Assembly (NCBI RefSeq): GCF_024169655.1 | Contig: NZ_JALJWV010000001.1 | Span: 2,485,001-2,549,000, forward strand | Source of the DNA: Pseudomonas marginalis | GTDB taxonomy: Bacteria > Pseudomonadota > Gammaproteobacteria > Pseudomonadales > Pseudomonadaceae | Length of the DNA stretch: 64,000 nt | Direction: 5' to 3' | Shown here: positions 22,786 through 62,999 of the stretch, one piece after another | Numbering within the stretch: position 1 is the first letter of the stretch | How the letters are laid out: each line of letters begins with the position of its first letter | Program-made: the position numbers and the translations under genes | The notes under the pieces: generated by a model | The model's input: only the letters and a program-made list of their open reading frames with translations | What the model was told of the DNA's origin: nothing | Database searches by the model: none

Positions 22786-22862
22786 TATCAGCCTTGAGCG
22801 CCGGGTGAAGAAGAATAGGGATTTGTACGCTAACGGCCTGAGCATCGCCAGTCATCCCATGC

Positions 22863-22892
22863 ACAACGGCCCACCAAAAGGCGGGCCGTTGT
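22863..22892. terminator. Hairpin between a parvulin gene and the YejA-like gene
   Basis: A 10-base perfect stem, ACAACGGCCC (22863-22872) with GGGCCGTTGT (22883-22892), around a 10-base loop. It lies 24 bases past the parvulin stop. The run of T after the stem is short on the plus strand and absent on the minus strand, so its efficiency as a terminator for the minus-strand parvulin gene is uncertain. Confidence 0.5.
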
Positions 22893-22915
22893 TTCAAGCA
22901 TCAGCGCGGACTGAA

Positions 22916-23197
22916 TCAGTCCTGACGGCTGGTGACTTCCAGCAGGTGATAACCGAACTGGGTTTTCACCGGGCCTTGCACAGTGTTGACCGGGGCGCTG
23001 AACACCACGGCGTCGAATTCTTTAACCATCTGGCCTGGACCGAACGAGCCCAGGTCGCCGCCTTGACGGCTGGAGGGGCAGGTGGAATTGGCTTTGGCAA
23101 CGTCTGCGAAATCGGCGCCGCCTTCGATTTGGGCCTTGAGTTCATTGCACTTGTCTTCGGTGGCAACGAGGATGTGACGGGCGGTGGCTTTGGCCAT
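22916..23197 (-). CDS. ppiC: Small parvulin-type peptidyl-prolyl isomerase (second copy)
   Basis: Parvulin of 93 residues with ARHILVAT (residues 6-13), CPSSRQGGDLGSFGPGQM (about 40-57) and FGYHLLEV near the end. It has no signal peptide. ATG 23197 has AAGGAG about 9 bases upstream; a longer frame lacks a ribosome site. It resembles the protein at 8907-9182 but differs at many positions. Divergent from nnrS, so the ANR-like box at 23287-23300 lies in the shared intergenic region. Confidence 0.9.
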   Translation of the reverse strand: MAKATARHILVATEDKCNELKAQIEGGADFADVAKANSTCPSSRQGGDLGSFGPGQMVKEFDAVVFSAPVNTVQGPVKTQFGYHLLEVTSRQD

Positions 23198-23286
23198 GGG
23201 AATTAACTCCTTGAGTAAAAACGCTGAGCGTACCGGATTCAGTCGGTTATTTCCCGGCAAAGTTCCCCTGTTCGTGGCGGGCGTGC

Positions 23287-23300
23287 TTGATCTACGACAA
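23287..23300. promoter_or_regulatory. Weak ANR/DNR-like box upstream of nnrS
   Basis: TTGATCTACGACAA matches the FNR-family consensus TTGAT-N4-ATCAA fully in the left half and at three of five bases in the right. It is centred about 65 bases before the nnrS ATG. NnrS genes are commonly controlled by FNR/DNR-type regulators, which supports the call, but the right half is imperfect. Confidence 0.5.
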
Positions 23301-23358
23301 GGGCAATGCGCAGGCGACAGCGCAAGATTGTCGCATTCATCCGTTTAGGAGCCGTGCT

Positions 23359-24549
23359 ATGCAAGTGCTTGATCGACGCAAGGCCATGGCCATTCCCCCT
23401 TTGTTTCGCCTGGCGTTCCGCCCGTTTTTCCTCGGCGCCTGCCTGCTGGCGGTGCTGGCAATTCCGCTGTGGTTGTTTGCCCTGGGCGGCGCCACCGGTA
23501 CTTGGCAACCGGCCGGCGGCTGGTTGGCCTGGCACCGGCATGAGCTGCTGTTCGGCTTTGGCGTGGCGATCATCGCCGGCTTTTTGCTGACGGCGGTGCA
23601 AACCTGGACCGGCCGCCCCGGCCTCAGCGGCGCGCCGCTGGCGCTGCTCGCCGGTCTATGGCTGGCGGCACGCCTGGGTTGGTTGGTTAACCTGCCATGG
23701 CCGCTGCTGGCGGTGCTGGAGCTGAGTTTTCCGCTGGCCGTGGCTGGGGTGATGGGCTGGACGCTGTGGAAGGTCAGGCAAACCCGCAACTACCCGATTG
23801 TATTGGTGCTGGGCCTGCTCGCCGTGGCAGACGCGTTGGCGCTCTATGGGGTGCTGCGCCAGGACGAAGGCATGCAGCGCCAGGCGGTGCTCACGGGTTT
23901 GTGGCTGGTGGCGGCGATGATGGGGCTGATCGGCGGCCGGGTGATTCCGTTCTTTACCCAGCGTGGCCTGGGCCGGGTCGATGCGGTCAAGCCGTGGCCG
24001 TGGCTGGACCGCGTATTGCTCGGCGGTTCGATCCTGATAGCGTTGCTCTACGCCAGCGGGCTGGCGGTGTTCCCCAGTGGCTGGAGCGGCGCGCTGTTCG
24101 CCGTGCTTGGCCTGGGCCACCTGCTGCGCCTGGTGCGCTGGCATGACCGTGGCCTGTGGCGCGTGCCGCTGCTGTGGTCGCTGCACCTGGCATATGCGTG
24201 GTTGGCTGTGGCCTGTCTGGGCATGGCGCTGTGGCATTTCGGCGCGCCGCTCAACCCGAGCCTGGCCGTGCATGCGCTGACGATCGGCGCCATGGCCGGG
24301 ATGATCCTGGCGATGGTGGCGCGGGTCAGCCTGGGCCATACCGGTCGGCCGTTGCAGCCGCCGGGCGGGATGACCCTGGCGTTTGCACTGTTGAACCTGG
24401 CCGCAGTGTGCCGGGTGGTGCTGGTGTTGATCTGGCCCGTGGCGGCCTTGTGGCTGGCGGGGATTTGCTGGACGGTCGGCCTGGGCCTGTACCTGTGGCG
24501 TTATGCGCCGATGCTGTGGCAAGCGCGGGTCGACGGGCATCCCGGTTAG
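23359..24549 (+). CDS. nnrS: NnrS family membrane protein (NO stress)
   Basis: Inner membrane protein of 396 residues with about 12 hydrophobic helices. NnrS is a haem- and copper-containing protein tied to nitric oxide tolerance during nitrite/nitrate respiration. The N-terminal FRLAFRPFFLGA, the WHRHELLFGFGVAIIAGFLL segment at about residues 53-72, and the HALTIGAMAGMIL and ARVSLGHTGR segments carry the conserved histidines. A TAGGAG site precedes ATG 23359; the longer frame lacks one. A four-His membrane protein follows 9 bases downstream, then the PdxH-Moe-Ubi block. Confidence 0.9.
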   Translation: MQVLDRRKAMAIPPLFRLAFRPFFLGACLLAVLAIPLWLFALGGATGTWQPAGGWLAWHRHELLFGFGVAIIAGFLLTAVQTWTGRPGLSGAPLALLAGLWLAARLGWLVNLPWPLLAVLELSFPLAVAGVMGWTLWKVRQTRNYPIVLVLGLLAVADALALYGVLRQDEGMQRQAVLTGLWLVAAMMGLIGGRVIPFFTQRGLGRVDAVKPWPWLDRVLLGGSILIALLYASGLAVFPSGWSGALFAVLGLGHLLRLVRWHDRGLWRVPLLWSLHLAYAWLAVACLGMALWHFGAPLNPSLAVHALTIGAMAGMILAMVARVSLGHTGRPLQPPGGMTLAFALLNLAAVCRVVLVLIWPVAALWLAGICWTVGLGLYLWRYAPMLWQARVDGHPG

Positions 24550-24558
24550 GAGCATTGC

Positions 24559-24978
24559 ATGCTGTATTCGTGGTTGTTGATCGTGCATCTGCTGGCGGCG
24601 ATCGCCTTTATCGGCACGCTGTTTTTTGAAGTGATGATCTGGCACAGCGCCCGCGAGGAGCTGGCCTGGTCGGCGCGCTTCACTGCCGAACACGCCATCG
24701 CCCGGCGTTCGCGGCGGGTGCTGCATGGCGTGGTAGTGCTGCTGTATGGCGCGGGCATCGGCCTGGCCTGGCATTACCGCGGCATGCCCTGGAACAGTCA
24801 TTTCGGACTGTTCCTGAGCCTGAAAATCCTGCTGGCCCTGAGCATCATCGGGCACTACCTGCTGCTGGCCTACTGGCTGACCCACGAGCGCCTGAGCCCC
24901 AAGCGTGCGCTGTGGATACGACGCAGCATTCTCGCGCACATGGTGGTGATCGTGGTCCTGGCGAAGTCATTGTGGTGA
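24559..24978 (+). CDS. Small four-helix membrane protein with one histidine per helix
   Basis: Protein of 139 residues with four predicted membrane helices at about 4-27, 54-73, 82-107 and 122-138. One histidine falls within or at the edge of each helix: H10, H56, H99 and H127. That arrangement resembles CopD/HemJ-like and cytochrome b-type membrane haem proteins. I do not recognise a named family with certainty. It begins 9 bases after nnrS with a TTAGGAG site, so it is co-transcribed and probably works with NnrS, or in haem, copper or electron handling during NO stress. Confidence 0.75.
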   Translation: MLYSWLLIVHLLAAIAFIGTLFFEVMIWHSAREELAWSARFTAEHAIARRSRRVLHGVVVLLYGAGIGLAWHYRGMPWNSHFGLFLSLKILLALSIIGHYLLLAYWLTHERLSPKRALWIRRSILAHMVVIVVLAKSLW

Positions 24979-25009
24979 GCGGCGTGCGGCGCCATGCCGC
25001 GGCGGATTG

Positions 25010-25023
25010 TTGATCGTGATCAA
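25010..25023. promoter_or_regulatory. Perfect ANR/DNR (FNR-type) box upstream of pdxH
   Basis: TTGATCGTGATCAA is a perfect match to TTGAT-N4-ATCAA. Its centre is about 62 bases before the pdxH ATG, so a class II arrangement (centre at -41.5) would put transcription start near 25058, just ahead of the GGAGG site at 25066-25070. It probably drives the pdxH-moaB-moeA-ubiUVT block under low oxygen. Confidence 0.8.
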
Positions 25024-25078
25024 GGGATAGAACCTGCGCAGTTCCCACACTGTGGCGAATTCTCTGGAGGTCCGTCCC

Positions 25079-25726
25079 ATGCCCCTGTCCCTCGCGCAAC
25101 TGCGCCGCAACTACACCCTCTACGGCCTGCGGGACGACGGCGAGCAGGACGATCCGCTGGTGTTGTTCGGTCAGTGGCTGAGCCAGGCCCGCAAAACCGA
25201 AGTGCCTCCCGCCGAGGCCAACAGCATGGCCCTGGCCACGGTCGACAGTGAAGGGGGCGCCCATTGCCGCATCCTGCTGCTCAAGGGCTTCAGCGCCGAG
25301 GGCTTTGTGTTTTTTGGCAATTACCAGAGCGCCAAGGGCGAGGAACTGGCGAGCAACCCCCAAGCGGCGATGACGTTTTTCTGGCCGGGCCTGGAGCGCC
25401 AGGTGCGCATTGAAGGCGCGGTCGAGCGCCTCGATCCGGCGCTGTCGGACGCCTATTTCGTCGCCCGTCCGGCCGCCAGCCAACTCGGCGCCTGGGCCTC
25501 GCCGCAGAGTCAGCCCCTGGCCCACCGCAGCGAGCTGGAAGGTTTGCTGCGTGAGGTCACCGAACGTTTCGCCGGCCAGCAGCCGCCACGGCCCGAGCAT
25601 TGGGGCGGGTACTGCCTGAAGCCGCGCCGCATCGAGTTCTGGCAAGGCCGCCCTGACCGCCTGCATGACCGCCTCGACTACCGCCTGCAAGACGGCGCCT
25701 GGCAGCGCACGCGGCTGGCGCCCTGA
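25079..25726 (+). CDS. pdxH: Pyridoxine/pyridoxamine 5'-phosphate oxidase
   Basis: FMN-dependent enzyme of 215 residues, making pyridoxal 5'-phosphate from PNP or PMP with O2. Family motifs are [14 protein letters not shown] (about 41-54), RILLLKGF (about 59-66), [14 protein letters not shown] (about 98-111), [13 protein letters not shown] (about 130-142) and the C-terminal [15 protein letters not shown] signature. Length is normal for PdxH. The start is at ATG 25079 with GGAGG. It is odd that an O2-using enzyme lies first after a perfect ANR box, in a block for anaerobic life. It may be a second pdxH copy; the rest of the genome would tell. Confidence 0.9.
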
Positions 25727-25810
25727 CGAGGTACCTCCTTCGAGGAATAGGCCCTGCGCCCGTTGCGGCGCAGGCTGAGCGCATCTTTTTATCTGCCTGG
25801 AGCCTTGATC

Positions 25811-26365
25811 ATGGCCCATTTGACCCAACGCAGTTTTGTCTCCCTGAACATCGCCGTGCTGACCATCAGCGACACCCGCACCTTTGACACCGATACCTCC
25901 GGGCAGACTCTGGTAGAGCGCCTTGAAGGTGCCGGCCATGTGCTGATCGACCGTGGCCTGGTGATGGACGATATCTACCAGATCCGCGCCCGTGTCTCGC
26001 AGTGGATCGCCGACCCTCAGGTGCAAGTGATCCTGATGACCGGCGGCACCGGCTTCACCGCCCGCGACAACACGCCACAAGCGGTGTTGCCGCTGCTGGA
26101 TAAACAGGTGGACGGTTTTGGCGAGCTGTTCCGCCAGGTGTCCCTGGCGGAAATCGGCATGTCCACCTTGCAGTCCCGCGCGCTGGCGGGCATGAGCAAC
26201 GGCGTGCTGGTGTGTTGCGTGCCCGGTTCGCCCGGCGCGTGCCGCACCGCCTGGGACCAGATTCTGGTCAGTCAATTGGACAGCCGCACCGGCCCGTGCA
26301 ACTTCGTTGCGCACCTCAAGCCCCAGTTCGAACAGACGCTCAGCGCCTGTGAGGCGCGGTCATGA
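25811..26365 (+). CDS. moaB: Molybdenum cofactor protein MoaB
   Basis: Protein of 184 residues of the MoaB/Mog fold, which binds molybdopterin and adenylates it before molybdate insertion. Motifs visible are LNIAVLTISDTR near residue 12, the MTGGTGFTARDNTP loop near 77-90, and FGELFR near residue 104. ATG 25811 with GGAG is preferred over a start 15 codons upstream. Just before it, at 25753-25774, is an 8-base hairpin followed by T5, possibly an attenuator. The stop overlaps moeA by 4 bases. It supports molybdoenzymes such as nitrate reductase. Confidence 0.9.
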   Translation: MAHLTQRSFVSLNIAVLTISDTRTFDTDTSGQTLVERLEGAGHVLIDRGLVMDDIYQIRARVSQWIADPQVQVILMTGGTGFTARDNTPQAVLPLLDKQVDGFGELFRQVSLAEIGMSTLQSRALAGMSNGVLVCCVPGSPGACRTAWDQILVSQLDSRTGPCNFVAHLKPQFEQTLSACEARS

Positions 26366-27594
26366 ACACCCGCGTGTGTGACAGCGGGTCGTTGATGCCG
26401 GTGGACGAGGCGATCGCGCAACTGCTGGCCCAGGCGCCGCCTGTGCCAGTCACCGAAGTGATCCCCCTCGGCCAGGCTGCGGGCCGGGTGATCGCCGAAG
26501 AACTGTTTTCCCCCCTCGACTTGCCGGGCTGGGACAACAGCGCCATGGACGGCTACGCCCTGCGCGCCGCCGATGTGCCGGAGCAGGGCGGCTACCTGGT
26601 GTTGGCCGGGCGGATTGCCGCCGGGCACAGCAGCGATGTGCCGTTGCAGGCCGGGCAAACGGTGCGGATTTTCACCGGCGCGCCATTGCCGCCCGGCGCC
26701 GACAGCGTGGTGCCCCAGGAGCGTTGCCGCGTCTACGGCCAGCGCATCTGGTGCCCACCGCTGCGTCTGGGCGAACACGTGCGCAAGCGCGGCGAAGAGC
26801 TGCAACGCGGGCAAAGCCTGTTGCGTGTCGGCCAGCGTCTGCGCGCCCAGGAAGTCGGTCTGCTGGCGTCGGCCGGCATCCCTTGGGTCAAGGTCTATCG
26901 CCCTCTGCGCGTGTGCCTGCTGAGCAGCGGCGATGAACTGCGCGAGCCGGGCGAGTCACTGGCGCCGGGACAGATCTACAACAGCAACCGCCACCTGGTG
27001 ACCGCGTTATTGCGCGGCTGGGGCGTGGAGGTGCTCGACTACGGGGTGATGGCCGACGCGCTGGCCGCCAGCCGCGACGCGTTGATCCTGGCGTCCTCCG
27101 AATGCGACCTGCTGCTGACCACCGGCGGCGTGTCGGTCGGCGAGGAGGACCATCTCAAGCAAGCCATCCAGGAGCTCGGTCGCGTGGATTTCTGGCGCCT
27201 GGCGATCCAGCCCGGCAAGCCCCTGGCGTTTGGCGAAGTCGCGGGCAAACCGTGGATCGGCCTGCCCGGCAACCCGTCCGCCGCGCTGATCACCACGTTG
27301 GTGGTGGTGCGTCCGTTCCTGTTGCGCGCCCAGGGTGTCGAGCGCGTATTGCCGGTGCCGATCCAGGTGCCGGCCGGGTTTGAATGGTCCACCCCCAACA
27401 AGCGTCGCCAGTACCTGCGCGCGCGCTTGAGCCCGGGCGAGGATGGGCAATTGCGCGCCGTCCTGCACCCCCAGCAAAGCTCGGCGATGCTCACTGCCGC
27501 CTGCTGGGCCGATGGCCTGGTGATCGTCGAGCCCGAGCAACTGTTGCTCAAGGACGCACCGGTGCCTTTCCTGTCTTTCGCCGAGTTTCAATGA
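26362..27594 (+). CDS. moeA: Molybdopterin molybdenumtransferase MoeA
   Basis: Protein of 410 residues that inserts molybdate into adenylated molybdopterin. It shows the MoeA domains in order: an N-terminal region with LDLPGWDNSAMDGYALRA at about 52-69, the FTGAPLPPGADSVVPQE segment at about 105-121, the MoCF-binding domain with LLTTGGVSVGEEDHL at about 251-265 and LPGNPSAAL near 300-308, and a C-terminal beta domain. It is translationally coupled to moaB (ATGA) and followed 9 bases later by ubiU. Confidence 0.92.
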   Translation: MNTRVCDSGSLMPVDEAIAQLLAQAPPVPVTEVIPLGQAAGRVIAEELFSPLDLPGWDNSAMDGYALRAADVPEQGGYLVLAGRIAAGHSSDVPLQAGQTVRIFTGAPLPPGADSVVPQERCRVYGQRIWCPPLRLGEHVRKRGEELQRGQSLLRVGQRLRAQEVGLLASAGIPWVKVYRPLRVCLLSSGDELREPGESLAPGQIYNSNRHLVTALLRGWGVEVLDYGVMADALAASRDALILASSECDLLLTTGGVSVGEEDHLKQAIQELGRVDFWRLAIQPGKPLAFGEVAGKPWIGLPGNPSAALITTLVVVRPFLLRAQGVERVLPVPIQVPAGFEWSTPNKRRQYLRARLSPGEDGQLRAVLHPQQSSAMLTAACWADGLVIVEPEQLLLKDAPVPFLSFAEFQ

Positions 27595-27603
27595 GGAGTC
27601 TCC

Positions 27604-28599
27604 ATGCAACTGGTCTGCCCGGCAGGCAACCTGCCTGCGCTGAAAGCCGCGGTGCGCCAAGGCGCCGATGCGGTGTATGTCGGTTTTCGCGATGACACCA
27701 ATGCCCGGCATTTCGCCGGGCTGAACATGGACGACAAACAGTTCGATGCCGCCGTCGCCCATATCCGCCAGCACCAGCGCAAGCTGTATGTGGCGGTCAA
27801 CACCTACCCGCAACCGAAGATCTGGTCACGCTGGCAGCGCGCCGTCGACCGCGCGGCCGATCATGGCGTGGATGCGCTGATCGCCGGCGACCCCGGTGTG
27901 CTCGGTTACGCCGCTGCGCGCCATCCGCAGATGGCGTTGCACTTGTCGGTGCAGGGCTCGGCCACCCACGCGGCGGCGCTGAAGTTCTACGTCGAGCGTT
28001 ATGGCATTCGTCGCGCGGTGCTGCCGCGGGTGCTGTCCCTGGCCCAGGTGCGGCAGGTGGCGGCGAGCAGCGTGGTGCCGATCGAAGTGTTCGGCTTCGG
28101 CAGCCTGTGCATCATGGCCGAAGGGCGTTGCCACTTGTCGTCGTATATCACCGGTGAGTCGCCCAACCTGTGCGGCGTGTGCTCGCCGGCCAAGGCGGTG
28201 CGCTGGAGCGACGACGCCGATGGCCTCAGCGCACGCCTCAGTGAAGTGCTGATCGACCGCTACACCCCGGAGGAACCGGCCGGCTACCCGACCTTGTGCA
28301 AAGGCCGCTTCCTGGTCGGCGGCAAGCGTTTCCACGCCCTGGAAGAACCGACCAGCCTCGACACCCTGGACCTGTTGCCCGAACTCAGCGCCATTGGCGT
28401 GGCAGCGGTGAAGATCGAAGGCCGGCAACGCAGCCCGGCCTATGTGGAACAAGTCACCCGAGTCTGGCGCGCCGCCCTCGACGCCCACCGCAGCGCCCCG
28501 GCCAATTTTGTGGTCAAGGACCAGTGGCGCCAGGTGCTGGCCGGACTTTCCGAAGGCAGCCAGACCACCCTGGGTGCTTACCATCGCGCATGGCAGTGA
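27604..28599 (+). CDS. ubiU: O2-independent ubiquinone hydroxylation protein UbiU
   Basis: Protein of 331 residues of the U32 peptidase-like family, a 4Fe-4S protein that works with UbiV in oxygen-independent hydroxylations of ubiquinone synthesis. Cysteines C169, C176, C193 and C232 fall at the positions of the E. coli UbiU cluster ligands; the first two lie in SLCIMAEGRCHLSS. A glycine-rich opening LVCPAGNLPALK and the EGRQRSPAYV segment near 280 are family marks. GAGG ribosome site. It is followed by ubiV after 10 bases. In P. aeruginosa the equivalents PA3911-PA3913 are needed for denitrifying growth. Confidence 0.93.
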   Translation: MQLVCPAGNLPALKAAVRQGADAVYVGFRDDTNARHFAGLNMDDKQFDAAVAHIRQHQRKLYVAVNTYPQPKIWSRWQRAVDRAADHGVDALIAGDPGVLGYAAARHPQMALHLSVQGSATHAAALKFYVERYGIRRAVLPRVLSLAQVRQVAASSVVPIEVFGFGSLCIMAEGRCHLSSYITGESPNLCGVCSPAKAVRWSDDADGLSARLSEVLIDRYTPEEPAGYPTLCKGRFLVGGKRFHALEEPTSLDTLDLLPELSAIGVAAVKIEGRQRSPAYVEQVTRVWRAALDAHRSAPANFVVKDQWRQVLAGLSEGSQTTLGAYHRAWQ

Positions 28600-28609
28600 G
28601 GAATTACAG

Positions 28610-29500
28610 ATGAAACTCAGCCTGGGACCGGTGCTGTTTTATTGGGATAAGGAACACCTGGGGCGCTTCTATTCAGACATGGCCGGCTTGCCCCTGGACG
28701 TGATTTACCTGGGGGAAACCGTGTGCTCCAAACGCCGCGCGTTTTCGCTGGATCAATGGTTGGGCCTGGGCCGCGAGTTGCAGTCGTGCAGTCCGGCGCA
28801 GATCGTGCTGTCGAGCCTGACCTTGATCGAAGCCGCCTCCGAGCTGTCGAGCCTGCGCCGCCTGTGCGACAACGGCGAGGTGCTGGTTGAAGCCAACGAC
28901 ATGGGCGCGGTGCAGTTGCTGATCGAGCGCAAGCTGCCCTTTGTCGGCGGCCCGGCGCTCAACCTGTACAACGGCCACGCCCTGGTGCAATTGCTCGATG
29001 CGGGCATGCAGCGTTGGGTGCCGCCGGTGGAGTGCTCGCAAAGCCTGATCGCCGATGTACTGGAGCAGGTGCGCGAACTCGGCCGGCCGTTGCCCGAAGT
29101 GGAGATCTTCGCCTACGGGCATTTGCCGCTGGCGTACTCGGCCCGTTGCTTCACCGCCCGCGCGGAAAACCGGCCCAAGGACGATTGTCAGTTCTGTTGC
29201 ATCAACTACCCCGATGGCATGGCCCTGACCAGCCAGGAAGGGCAGCCGCTGTTCACCTTGAACGGGATTCAGACGATGTCGGCCGATGTCACCAACTTGC
29301 TCGCCGATTACCCCGGCCTGGTCGCGTGTGGTGCTGACCTGTTGCGCCTGAGCCCACGGGCTGAGGGCATGGTCGGCGTGGTCCAGGCTTTCGATCAGGT
29401 GCGCCAGGGCGCAATGCCGCCGTTGTGCGTCGACGGCTGCAACGGTTACTGGCACGGCCAGGCCGGCATGCTGCGGGTCGAGGAGGTGGGCCTGTGTTGA
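28610..29500 (+). CDS. ubiV: O2-independent ubiquinone hydroxylation protein UbiV
   Basis: Protein of 296 residues, U32-like, forming a heterodimer with UbiU. C39, C180, C193 and C197 match the E. coli UbiV iron-sulfur ligands; the last three lie in YSARCFTAR and DDCQFCCINY. ATG 28610 has GAGG; a longer frame would overlap ubiU by 150 bases. The stop overlaps the ubiT start by a few bases, so the three ubi genes are coupled. Confidence 0.93.
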   Translation: MKLSLGPVLFYWDKEHLGRFYSDMAGLPLDVIYLGETVCSKRRAFSLDQWLGLGRELQSCSPAQIVLSSLTLIEAASELSSLRRLCDNGEVLVEANDMGAVQLLIERKLPFVGGPALNLYNGHALVQLLDAGMQRWVPPVECSQSLIADVLEQVRELGRPLPEVEIFAYGHLPLAYSARCFTARAENRPKDDCQFCCINYPDGMALTSQEGQPLFTLNGIQTMSADVTNLLADYPGLVACGADLLRLSPRAEGMVGVVQAFDQVRQGAMPPLCVDGCNGYWHGQAGMLRVEEVGLC

Positions 29501-29961
29501 GTCGCAAACAATGGCTGCTCAAGGGCGCCGATCGCTTGCTGCCGCTGGTGCGCCACGTGCCGTTCCGGGTGCAGCGCCTGGCCTTGCAGCAAGGTCTCAA
29601 CCGCTGCCTGGCCGAGCCGTTGCGCGACGGCGGCTTTGACCTGCTGCGCGGGCGCTGGATGTGCTTGCGCATCCCGGATCTCGGGCTGTGCTGGTACCTG
29701 ACCCTGGCACGGGACGGTTTGCGCCTTGCCGAAAAAGCCGAGGCCCAGGTGACGATCAGTGGTAACTGGCGCGAGTTCTTGTTGCTGGCCAGTCGGCAGG
29801 AAGACCCGGACACCTTGTTCTTCCGGCGCCGCTTGGTGATTGAAGGCGATACGGAGTTGGGGCTGGGCTTGAAGAACCTGATCGACAGCCTCGACTCCGA
29901 TGTGCTGCCGCCCTGGTTGTGGCGCAACCTGGAGCGGGCAGGGCGCGGGCTGGCGGCCTGA
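29494..29961 (+). CDS. ubiT: Ubiquinone accessory factor UbiT (SCP2 domain)
   Basis: Protein of 155 residues with an SCP2 sterol/lipid-carrier domain, thought to hold the hydrophobic quinone intermediates for UbiU-UbiV under anaerobic conditions. The SCP2 core is RIPDLGLCWYLTLARDGL and VTISGNWREFLLLASRQEDP, followed by FFRRRLVIEGDTELGLGLKN. The start is GTG at 29494, with AGGAGG at ideal spacing, and overlaps the ubiV stop. Last gene of the anaerobic block; a 9-base hairpin follows. Confidence 0.9.
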   Translation: MLSRKQWLLKGADRLLPLVRHVPFRVQRLALQQGLNRCLAEPLRDGGFDLLRGRWMCLRIPDLGLCWYLTLARDGLRLAEKAEAQVTISGNWREFLLLASRQEDPDTLFFRRRLVIEGDTELGLGLKNLIDSLDSDVLPPWLWRNLERAGRGLAA

Positions 29962-29968
29962 CGCGAGC

Positions 29969-29999
29969 GACCTATCCCTTCGCAACGAGCGGATAGGTC
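29969..29999. terminator. Hairpin between ubiT and the convergent nppD gene
   Basis: A perfect 9-base stem, GACCTATCC (29969-29977) with GGATAGGTC (29991-29999), around a 13-base loop. It sits in the 49-base gap between two convergent genes, the expected place for a bidirectional terminator, but there is no T run on either side. Confidence 0.5.
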
Positions 30000-30010
30000 A
30001 CTGTCACGTG

Positions 30011-31615
30011 CTAAGGCGTCGGCACCAGAAACGCCGCCTCCAGCAACTGCCGGGTATAGGCATGTTGTGGGTTGGCGAAAATCGCTGGGGCATCGCCCTG
30101 TTCCACCACCTGCCCGTGCTTGACCACCATCAACTGGTGACTTAGCGCTTTCACCACGGCCAGGTCATGGCTGATGAACAGATAGGTCAGGTTGTACTTG
30201 GCCTGCAAACCGCGCAGCAATTCCACCACTTGGCGCTGTACCGTGCGGTCGAGCGCCGAGGTCGGTTCGTCGAGCAGAATCAGGCGCGGTTTGAGTACCA
30301 GGGCGCGGGCAATGGCGATGCGTTGGCGCTGGCCGCCGGAGAACTCGTGGGGGTAGCGATGCCGCGATTGCGGGTCGAGGCCGACTTCCTTGAGCGCCGC
30401 AATAATCGCCGCTTCCTGCTCCGCCGGGCTGCCCATCTTGTGAATGCGCAGGCCTTCGCCGACGATCTCACTGACGCACATGCGCGGGCTGAGGCTGCCG
30501 AACGGGTCCTGGAACACCACCTGCATTTCCCGGCGCAACGGGCGTACCTGTTGCTGGGTCAGGCGGTCGAGTTGCTGGCCTTCGAAGCGAATCCCGCCTT
30601 TGCTCGCGATCAGACGCAGGATCGCCAGGCCGAGGGTGGACTTGCCTGAGCCGCTTTCGCCGACGATGCCCAGGGTTTGCCCCTGGGGCAGGCTGAAATT
30701 GATGCCGTCGACCGCCTTGACGTAGTCGACGGTGTTGCGCAGAAAGCCTTTTTTGATCGGAAACCAGACTTTCAAATCATCGACTTCTAGCAACGGCGGC
30801 CCGACGGCCGTGTCGGCCGGCCCACCGCTGGGTTCGGCGGCGAGCAGTTCCTGGGTGTAAGGGTGCTGCGGCGACTGGAACAAGGTTTCGCAATCGGCTT
30901 GTTCGACGATGCAACCCTGCTGCATCACGCACACCCGGTGGGCAATGCGCCGCACCAGGTTCAAGTCGTGGCTGATCAGCAGCAACGCCATGCCCAGGCG
31001 CGCCTGCAGTTCCTTGAGCAGTTCGAGGATCTTCAACTGCACCGTCACGTCGAGGGCGGTGGTCGGTTCGTCGGCGATCAACAGCTCCGGCTCGTTGGCC
31101 AGGGCCATGGCGATCATCACCCGTTGGCGCTGGCCGCCGGACAGTTCGTGGGGCAGGGCCTTGAGGCGTTTATGCGGCTCGGGAATGCCCACCAGTTCGA
31201 GCAACTCCAGAGTGCGTCGGGTCGCGACTTTACCGGTCAGCCCTTTGTGCAGGCCGAGCACTTCGTTGATCTGCTTCTCGATGCAGTGCAGCGGGTTCAA
31301 CGAGGTCATCGGCTCCTGGAAGATCATCGCAATGCGGTTGCCGCGAATATGCCGGATGGTTTTTTCTTTGAGGGTCAGCAGGTCCTGGCCGGCGTATTCG
31401 ATGGTGCCGGCGGGGTGCCGCGCCAAGGGGTAGGGCAGCAGACGCAGGATCGAGTGGGCGGTCACCGATTTGCCGGAGCCGCTTTCGCCGACCAGCGCCA
31501 GGGTTTCGCCGCGCTTGATGTCGAAGCTGACGTTGTTCACCACGCGGTGGTGATGCTCGCCGGTGACGAACTCGACGCAGAGGTCGCGGACTTCGATCAG
31601 ATTGTCCTGATTCAT
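30011..31615 (-). CDS. nppD: Peptide ABC transporter dual ATPase NppD-like (copy 2)
   Basis: Fused dual ATPase of 534 residues. Domain 1 has GESGSGKSVT near residue 42 and [20 protein letters not shown] near 160. Domain 2 has GESGSGKSTLG near residue 330 and FSGGQRQRIAIARALVL near 437. ATG 31615 is preceded by CGAGGAA. It begins 1 base after the nppC stop. The gene order SBP-SBP-permease-permease-ATPase matches the NppA1A2BCD system of P. aeruginosa, which imports peptidyl nucleoside antibiotics such as pacidamycin; natural substrates are probably peptides. Confidence 0.87.
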   Translation of the reverse strand: MNQDNLIEVRDLCVEFVTGEHHHRVVNNVSFDIKRGETLALVGESGSGKSVTAHSILRLLPYPLARHPAGTIEYAGQDLLTLKEKTIRHIRGNRIAMIFQEPMTSLNPLHCIEKQINEVLGLHKGLTGKVATRRTLELLELVGIPEPHKRLKALPHELSGGQRQRVMIAMALANEPELLIADEPTTALDVTVQLKILELLKELQARLGMALLLISHDLNLVRRIAHRVCVMQQGCIVEQADCETLFQSPQHPYTQELLAAEPSGGPADTAVGPPLLEVDDLKVWFPIKKGFLRNTVDYVKAVDGINFSLPQGQTLGIVGESGSGKSTLGLAILRLIASKGGIRFEGQQLDRLTQQQVRPLRREMQVVFQDPFGSLSPRMCVSEIVGEGLRIHKMGSPAEQEAAIIAALKEVGLDPQSRHRYPHEFSGGQRQRIAIARALVLKPRLILLDEPTSALDRTVQRQVVELLRGLQAKYNLTYLFISHDLAVVKALSHQLMVVKHGQVVEQGDAPAIFANPQHAYTRQLLEAAFLVPTP

Positions 31616-62252: not shown

Positions 62253-62999
62253 TTAAGGTCGGTACACGTGCGCATGCCCGGCCCGATACAGCGACGACGC
62301 GCTGAAACTGTCACTGGCCAGCACCCGACCCACCACAATCAGCGCCGTGCGCCTGAAGCCCTTGGCCGCGACCTTTTCGGCGATGTCCGCCAAGGTGCCG
62401 ACGGCCCAATCCTGATCCGGCCAGGTCGCACGGTGTACCACGGCAATCGGGCAATCCGCGCCGTAGTGCGGCAGCAGTTCGGCAACGATCTTCTCCAAAT
62501 GATTGACCCCCAGGTGAATCGCCATGGTTGTGCCATGACGGGCCAGGCTGTCGAAGTCTTCACCGGCAGGCATGCGGGTTTTGTCCGCATACCGGGTGAG
62601 GATCACGCTCTGGGCGATGTCCGGCAGCGTCAGTTCGGTCTCCAGCAGCGCTGCGCAGGCCGCTACGGCGGTGACCCCGGGGATGATCTGGAACGCAATG
62701 CCCAACTCGCGCAACTGCCGGATCTGTTCGCCAATCGCCCCATACAGGCTTGGATCGCCGGAGTGGACCCGCGCCACATCCTGGCCCTTGGCATCGGCGG
62801 CCTTGATCACGTCGATAATCTGTTCCAGGTGCAGTTCGGCGCTGTTGATCACCTGTTCGGCCTGATGGCCTTCCAGTACCGCCGCCGGCACCAGCGACCC
62901 CGCATAGATGATCACCGGGCAACTGCGGATCAGCCGCTGGCCTTTGACGGTGATCAATTCCGGGTCGCCGGGGCCGGCGCCGATGAAGTAGACGGTCAT
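62253..62999 (-). CDS. cobM: Precorrin-4 C11-methyltransferase
   Basis: SAM-dependent enzyme of 248 residues of the tetrapyrrole methylase family, acting in aerobic cobalamin synthesis. Motifs: VYFIGAGPGDPELITVKGQ (residues 3-21), ARVHSGDPSLYGA near 76-88, and VVHRATWPDQDW near 190-201. It opens a run of cobalamin genes that continues through cobE and cbtA. ATG 62999. Confidence 0.92.
   Translation of the reverse strand: MTVYFIGAGPGDPELITVKGQRLIRSCPVIIYAGSLVPAAVLEGHQAEQVINSAELHLEQIIDVIKAADAKGQDVARVHSGDPSLYGAIGEQIRQLRELGIAFQIIPGVTAVAACAALLETELTLPDIAQSVILTRYADKTRMPAGEDFDSLARHGTTMAIHLGVNHLEKIVAELLPHYGADCPIAVVHRATWPDQDWAVGTLADIAEKVAAKGFRRTALIVVGRVLASDSFSASSLYRAGHAHVYRP

Follow-up and report, generated by a model that had tools for sequence, protein, structure and literature searches.

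What does a second vitamin B6 enzyme do behind an apparent promoter of the low-oxygen type, and how is vitamin B6 made once oxygen runs out? By the common bacterial route, synthesis of pyridoxal 5'-phosphate (PLP) ends in an oxidase that itself uses oxygen. The question is raised by a gene block of Pseudomonas marginalis (assembly GCF_024169655.1), located in a stretch of 64,000 nucleotides (the window hereafter) that covers positions 2,485,001-2,549,000 of the single 6.38-Mb contig NZ_JALJWV010000001.1. In this block nnrS, a gene for a 139-amino-acid membrane protein, pdxH2, moaB, moeA, ubiU, ubiV and ubiT follow one another on the forward strand, pdxH2 encoding a second pyridoxine/pyridoxamine 5'-phosphate oxidase. 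We read the block as an operon that would provide a complete denitrifier of the P. fluorescens group with its cofactors at low oxygen, PLP coming from PdxH2, and give this reading a probability of about 0.72.

Identity and conservation of PdxH2

PdxH2 was assigned with the family model TIGR00558, which it matches at 248 bits for a cut-off of 180. PhzG, the paralogue of phenazine synthesis, was rejected as its identity, the score with NF038138 being 160 bits against a cut-off of 270 and thus poorer than the score as PdxH. The protein aligns with the Escherichia coli pyridoxine 5'-phosphate (PNP) oxidase structures 1G76-1G79 over residues 5-215 (E = 1e-48). Residues R14, Y17, R67, K72, Y129, R133, R197 and H199 are kept in 34 of 34 sequences and S137 in 33 of 34, as in the housekeeping PdxH1; we take them to form the catalytic PNP/PLP site of E. 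coli PdxH. Nine further substitutions are specific to the PdxH2 group and none of them was linked to the flavin.

The PdxH2 proteins form one clade (support 100/99) beside the Pseudomonas PdxH1 proteins, on a stem of 0.37. Those of other genomes are 69-88% identical to that of the window, which is more change than is seen in PdxH1. For pdxH2, the ratio of nonsynonymous to synonymous substitution rates (dN/dS) is 0.10-0.19 in comparisons with eight relatives; with genome G175, where dS is near saturation, it is 0.08, and a single pair of pdxH1 genes gave 0.06. To judge from these ratios, PdxH2 is under purifying selection. Among 369 genomes of the class nothing was closer to PdxH2 than Pseudomonas PdxH1 (62% identity in its own genome, 57% for the best match outside the genus, in the same family). 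We therefore reject a horizontal origin and prefer duplication within the lineage.

The predicted pdxH2 promoter

The first-pass annotation of this DNA had reported a perfect TTGAT-N4-ATCAA box preceding the whole block. The box does exist, but it lies 1.7 kb inside the annotated range (23287-29961), between the membrane protein gene and pdxH2, and faces pdxH2 at 69 nucleotides (nt) from its ATG. The 64 kb contain it once, where dinucleotide shuffles predict 0.01; this expectation and the conservation of the box in relatives rule out pure chance. Conservation was followed in the best 80 of 587 loci encoding UbiU (L numbers below). PdxH2 is found in 33 of the 80, and TTGAY-N4-RTCAA precedes the gene in each of them. 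The distance from box to start is 69-71 nt in 32 cases; in L058 it is 77 nt from the start of the alignment, equal to 71 nt from an ATG two codons earlier. Shuffled pdxH2 upstream regions contained the degenerate box in 3 cases out of 33,000 (mononucleotide shuffles, 95 bp), and the housekeeping pdxH1 showed no FNR-type box in the 91-100 nt upstream of 15 genes. Of the closest UbiU loci examined, 35 in number (L026-L060), 33 have both box and pdxH2; L053 is incomplete and L026 lacks pdxH2.

Exactly 22 nt after the pdxH2-type box (box offset 37-42), 37 of 38 promoters have the hexamer CA[CG]ACT; the remaining one, from genome G223, has CATACT. The 38 comprise the 33 loci, the window, G175, G052, G223 and Pseudomonas sp. 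KBW05, and some of the G genomes may repeat genomes of the loci. CA[CG]ACT stands at this offset after none of the 64 other boxes of L027-L060, while the ubiU boxes of L032-L060 are followed one base earlier by TAGACT (27 of 27). A class II promoter has its box centred at -41.5, which puts the hexamer at -12 to -7. With its palindrome and the placing of the hexamer, the region upstream of pdxH2 looks like an FNR/ANR class II promoter, as a prediction.

Candidate regulators are encoded in the genome. A protein at 4,563.5 kb scores as FNR (322.7 bits, cut-off 228) and carries a cysteine cluster near its N-terminus. Another FNR-like protein falls slightly below the same cut-off (223 against 228). 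Two members of the CRP family encoded close to the nor and nos genes are DNR-like and lack an FNR-type cluster. The names ANR and DNR for these proteins are our assumption, based on position. We infer that ANR rather than DNR is the regulator.

Denitrification genes and co-occurrence across the genus

The genome carries, about 64-117 kb upstream of the block on the same chromosome, genes for NarG (2,433,264-2,436,977; 2526.9 bits, cut-off 1084), for NosZ (1051.7 bits, cut-off 625) and for NrdD (460.6 bits). Cytochrome d1 gave three strong matches, at 2,391-2,399 kb, and a weak one elsewhere; the first of the three shows cytochrome-c-like N-terminal matches, as expected for NirS. No copper nitrite reductase (CuNIR) scored over the cut-off in the genome. 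At 2,412,768, in the position of NorB, a heme-copper protein of the COX1 family gave weak oxidase matches with NCBIfam and is preceded by a small protein with a weak heme-motif match; we presume, from position, that these are NorB and NorC. By its predicted proteins, the genome has the denitrifier gene set for nitrate, nitrite and nitrous oxide reductases, with a norB-like gene assigned by position. A look-up of nar, nir and nor genes had been set beforehand, and it returned NarG and NirS, with the COX1-family protein as the candidate for nor. The proposal that the strain can respire nitrate or nitrite with reductases encoded outside the block is thus supported by NarG, by the cytochrome d1 proteins including NirS, and by NosZ. 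Eight degenerate FNR-type boxes were counted over the 100 kb that precede the window; four of them, at 2,399,991, 2,412,210, 2,430,473 and 2,442,074, are situated shortly upstream of nirS, of the nor pair, of a NarK-family pair (the second member over the NarK cut-off, the first below) and of nrdD.

Proteins over cut-off were counted in 249 genomes belonging to the genus: 57 have UbiU, 57 have NarG and 54 have both. G013, G248 and G052 have UbiU and lack NarG; a full NirS is found in G052 and weak cytochrome-d1 matches in the other two (NirK and Nap were not tested). NarG occurs without UbiU in G042, G149 and G240, the last 77% complete. Because 3 of the 57 UbiU genomes lack NarG and 3 of the 57 NarG genomes lack UbiU, the block alone is no proof of nitrate or nitrite respiration. 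PdxH2, called at 69% identity or more (the next best proteins, at 64% or less, being PdxH1), was found in 49 genomes, 47 of them with UbiU and 46 with NarG. The two that lack UbiU are G175 and G223, the latter 73% complete. Fisher's test gave p < 1e-35 for the co-occurrence, a value that overstates independence as the genomes are related.

Predicted oxygen-independent ubiquinone synthesis

UbiU and UbiV of the window are 62% and 55% identical to their E. coli K-12 counterparts. The alignment upholds the statement of the first-pass annotation that both keep their cluster ligands: C169, C176, C193 and C232 of UbiU and C39, C180, C193 and C197 of UbiV stand at identical residue numbers in the two species. 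These eight cysteines are given as the cluster ligands of the E. coli proteins by Pelosi et al. 2019 (PMC6747719). On the strength of the equivalog scores (Table 1) and the four predicted cysteine ligands of each protein, UbiU and UbiV, and UbiT by its score, are predicted members of the oxygen-independent ubiquinone pathway. UbiT accompanies UbiU in 79 of the 80 loci, the miss, L068, stopping at a contig end. Among these loci, the nearest matches to the UbiU of the window are those of Pseudomonas sp. KBW05 (97%), P. cedrina (95%) and P. marginalis (95%), which we take to be species of the P. fluorescens group.

Two genomes, G180 and G082 (L169-L172), have two UbiU-UbiV copies each. One copy lies in a moaB-moeA setting, the other has no moaB or moeA in the 16 kb around it.

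Possible functions of PdxH2

These observations can be assembled into a mechanism. As oxygen falls, ANR (or DNR) would bind two class II promoters, one driving nnrS together with the gene of the small membrane protein, the other pdxH2-moaB-moeA-ubiU-ubiV-ubiT. MoaB and MoeA would raise the supply of molybdenum cofactor for NarG, UbiUV and UbiT would replace the oxygen-dependent hydroxylases of ubiquinone synthesis, NnrS would meet nitric oxide (NO), and PdxH2 would add PNP oxidase activity for the formation of PLP where oxygen is too scarce for the housekeeping PdxH. The roles of MoaB, MoeA, UbiUVT and NnrS are those of known families. For PdxH2, the production of PLP at low oxygen is the most likely role, judging from its family and its predicted promoter.

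Several points weigh against this picture. The PdxH family uses oxygen, which makes it an odd member of an anaerobic operon. With PdxH2 absent from 10 of the 57 UbiU genomes, the module can evidently do without it. MoeA is recognised by its Pfam domains but stays below the NCBIfam equivalog cut-off (393.5 against 440), and a simple sigma-70 promoter scan of the region found none, against 0.6 in shuffles. Finally, G175 has PdxH2 and neither UbiU nor NarG over the cut-off, nor any cytochrome d1 match (NirK and Nap were not tested). In this genome the box, pdxH2 and a moeA remnant are in place, while ubiU, ubiV, ubiT and moaB are absent from the 18 kb around. Its PdxH2 nests inside the subclade of the window, so its state is a loss. 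G175 suggests that PdxH2 is not tied to Nar/NirS respiration and seems to serve low oxygen.

The alternative with the best standing, though an improbable one at perhaps one chance in five, is that PdxH2 works without oxygen as a PNP/pyridoxamine 5'-phosphate oxidase whose reduced flavin mononucleotide (FMN) passes its electrons to another acceptor, for example a quinone or an oxidised nitrogen species; PLP formation could then go on in full anoxia, in parallel to UbiUVT. Strict coupling to an FNR-type promoter would be expected of such an enzyme, as would its company in the genus (47 of 49 PdxH2 genomes with UbiU, 46 with NarG), and denitrifiers need some answer, a metabolic model of P. putida having no anoxic PLP (PMC7789669). 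But no residue was found that explains a new acceptor, none of the nine group-specific substitutions having been linked to the flavin; PdxH2 persists in G175, which has neither NarG over the cut-off nor cytochrome d1; and ten UbiU genomes manage without PdxH2. With the same low likelihood, an oxygen-independent PdxH2 could be the missing anoxic PLP step of denitrifiers that use the 1-deoxy-D-xylulose 5-phosphate (DXP) pathway, co-expressed with UbiUVT from one ANR/DNR promoter.

Of the ten UbiU genomes that lack PdxH2, one, G054, encodes a different PdxH at this position. G054 is the same genome as, or nearly the same as, Pseudomonas sp. MRCP1333 (L086; 100% matches) and was counted once. This third PdxH (L086 4601-5254; 234.5 bits, cut-off 180) is 56% identical to PdxH1 and 50% to PdxH2, and lies between norR and moaE (MoaE slightly below its cut-off, 169 against 175), with moaB-moeA-box-ubiUV downstream; an FNR-type box precedes norR by 74 nt. 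The approximately unbiased test did not reject a clade shared by this protein and PdxH2 (p = 0.37), and independent recruitment is thus unsupported. If PdxH2 were oxygen-independent, the L086 protein would be the same answer in another branch.

A shift of PdxH2 to a different substrate, of the kind that PhzG underwent for phenazine synthesis, is unlikely, with a little under one chance in ten. The long stem and the greater change relative to PdxH1 would fit such a shift, for which PhzG is a known paralogue precedent (PMC9997740), but PdxH2 scores well over the PdxH cut-off and far below that of PhzG. Less probable still, about one chance in twenty, is a role as partner flavoprotein of the UbiU-UbiV hydroxylase, outside vitamin B6 metabolism. 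Apart from the common gene row of pdxH2 and ubiUVT, this idea draws on E. coli yhbP (L106 2473-2916), which lies near ubiT-ubiU and encodes a putative FMN-binding protein of marginal similarity to PdxH2 by BLAST (29% over 78 residues, E = 0.02). It conflicts with the full conservation of the residues taken as the PNP/PLP site, with the presence of PdxH2 in G175 without ubiUVT, and with the ten genomes that have UbiU without PdxH2. A low-oxygen source of PLP remains our preferred role for PdxH2.

Probable transcription units

The block probably consists of two predicted transcription units, nnrS with the small membrane protein gene and pdxH2-moaB-moeA-ubiU-ubiV-ubiT, each with an FNR-type box. 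Before nnrS, TTGAY-N4-RWCAA is found in 30 of the 31 sources whose NnrS is more than 74% identical, L059 being the miss; the right half reads GACAA in 30 of the 31 rows, and GATGAT, GATAAT or CAAGAT occupies offset 37-42 of the box in 21. More distant nnrS genes have a perfect box in L085 and none in L067, L099 and L102. In 25 of 30 assessable relatives, norR and, on the opposite strand, ytfE lie between the two units; L027-L031 and the window have neither gene there, and in the genome of the window the ytfE-norR pair adjoins the nos genes.

Within the second unit, a degenerate box (no mismatch) stands at most 150 bp before ubiU, at the end of moeA, in 63 of the 80 loci. A tree of ubiU-ubiV with 40 rows unites in one clade (support 98/100) the ten that have no ubiU box within 230 bp, among them the window. 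As ubiUVT has no box of its own in that clade, it appears to rely on the pdxH2 promoter. In KBW05, pdxH2 is missing from its place, and by eye the box, the -10 hexamer and the spacer before moaB are kept and now face moaB; the contig is 4.5 kb long and a copy of pdxH2 may lie elsewhere. We infer that the six genes from pdxH2 to ubiT are co-transcribed from a single promoter. That a single box would control every gene of the block, nnrS included, as the common direction of all genes and a gap of just 100 bp after the small membrane protein gene might invite one to think, is very improbable, for the perfect box lies 3' of nnrS and is thereby ruled out as serving it, nnrS has its own conserved box, and ytfE and norR separate the units in most relatives.

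The divergent ytfE and norR of the genome of the window (2,417,052-2,418,681; L008 12052-13681) both encode proteins without their N-terminal domains, YtfE lacking ScdA_N and NorR the NO-sensing GAF domain, both of which are present in L033. A similarly short YtfE and a NorR of 326 aligned residues are found between the two units in L042. The short form of YtfE and NorR may be common to the subclade.

Features and surroundings of the block

Coordinates of the features are collected in Table 1. The identities of NnrS, MoaB, MoeA, UbiU, UbiV and UbiT proposed by the first-pass annotation hold with Pfam and NCBIfam, that of MoeA by its Pfam domains. The annotation had named these genes in the block 23287-29961 and overlooked pdxH2 and the membrane protein gene; its first coordinate, 23287, proved to be a mechanical open reading frame (ORF) start that coincides with the first base of the imperfect box, the likely start of NnrS being the ATG listed below.

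Table 1. Features of the block, in positions of the window
Feature	Positions	Strand	Basis
Imperfect FNR-type box TTGATCTACGACAA, nnrS promoter	23287..23300	+	TTGAY-N4-RWCAA kept in relatives
-10-like hexamer CAAGAT of nnrS (predicted)	23323..23328	+	position; putative
nnrS, NO-related membrane protein	23359..24549	+	PF05940 370.5 bits, cut-off 28; ATG 23359 picked by inspection
Small 139-residue membrane protein after nnrS	24559..24978	+	no significant family match
Perfect FNR/ANR/DNR-type box TTGATCGTGATCAA, pdxH2-moaB-moeA-ubiUVT promoter (predicted)	25010..25023	+	0.01 expected by chance
-10-like hexamer CACACT	25046..25051	+	at -12..-7 if the box centre is -41.5
pdxH2, second pyridoxine/pyridoxamine 5'-phosphate oxidase	25079..25726	+	TIGR00558 248 bits; catalytic residues; paralogue clade 100/99
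moaB	25811..26365	+	TIGR02667 266 bits, cut-off 222
moeA	26362..27594	+	MoeA_N, MoCF_biosynth and MoeA_C domains
ubiU	27604..28599	+	NF047963 537 bits, cut-off 440; Cys ligands
ubiV	28610..29500	+	NF047965 354 bits, cut-off 275; Cys ligands
ubiT, GTG start overlapping the ubiV stop (by inspection)	29494..29961	+	NF047962 145 bits, cut-off 46.9; 41% to E. coli UbiT

The 139-residue membrane protein has no NCBIfam or Pfam match at 0.001; its best Pfam match, UPF0093, has an E value of 0.43 and is not significant. It is present in 34 of the 80 loci, each time adjoining nnrS, and nnrS occurs without it in L085, L091 and L102. In the P. fluorescens-group loci the protein has several conserved histidine and aromatic positions.

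On the opposite strand, the block is flanked by genes of a peptide-type ATP-binding cassette (ABC) transporter: downstream a YejF-like ATPase slightly below its cut-off (765.9 bits against 834), upstream a substrate-binding protein with weak family matches. The window has two degenerate FNR-type boxes besides those of the block, both within ORFs: one at 30120-30133 in the YejF-like ATPase ORF and one at 62944-62957 in ORF 62253-62999, which by its look is a candidate precorrin methyltransferase. A search for RNA families in 22800-30100, with E up to 1, returned one eukaryotic snoRNA model inside ubiV, far below its gathering score; we discarded it as chance and rejected a riboswitch or other RNA family. 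A simple terminator scan gave 7 candidates, against 5.7 in shuffles, and nothing usable.

Comparison with known systems

The order moaB-moeA-ubiU-ubiV-ubiT is shared with P. aeruginosa (strain PA7, L101); in PAO1, PA3911-PA3915 are ubiT, ubiV, ubiU, moeA1 and moaB1 according to a table of PMC3568122. Unlike the window, P. aeruginosa has PA3916-PA3918 (moaE, moaD, moaC) upstream instead of pdxH2, and in L101 a box stands before ubiU. Its ubiT and ubiUV are reported as required for nitrate respiration (PMC6747719), and PA3913 is listed among shared Anr genes in PMC6588701, the main text of which contains neither "pdxH" nor "pyridox".

E. coli has the same UbiU, UbiV and UbiT proteins and cluster ligands, its ubiUV and ubiT being described as under FNR control (PMC10470549). 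There, by contrast, the genes form two divergent operons with no moa or pdxH genes adjoining, and pdxH lies elsewhere, beside tyrS and pdxY. The E. coli PdxH shares its catalytic residues with PdxH2, which differs in being a second copy, of a separate clade, behind an FNR-type promoter. From the other known paralogue, PhzG, PdxH2 is set apart by its score, and no phenazine gene was recognised in the block.

A response of pdxH to low oxygen has precedent, since tables of two other studies list it: gonococcal pdxH was up 4.3- and 5.5-fold without oxygen in two replicates (PMC3032703), and Shigella pdxH appears among genes influenced by anaerobiosis or FNR with a value of 1.06, the columns of that table being unchecked (PMC4229854). 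A PdxH paralogue encoded with ubiUVT or under ANR was not among the matches listed by our literature search, which covered few subscription journals. What is already known is the moaB-moeA-ubiUVT module with its connection to denitrification; the dedicated second PdxH is the new element.

Implications for life without air

Metabolic modelling indicates that P. putida cannot make PLP without oxygen (PMC7789669). A PdxH expressed where oxygen is scarce would make the question of anoxic PLP testable in soil strains, and PdxH2 is a possible missing part for the growth of P. putida without air.

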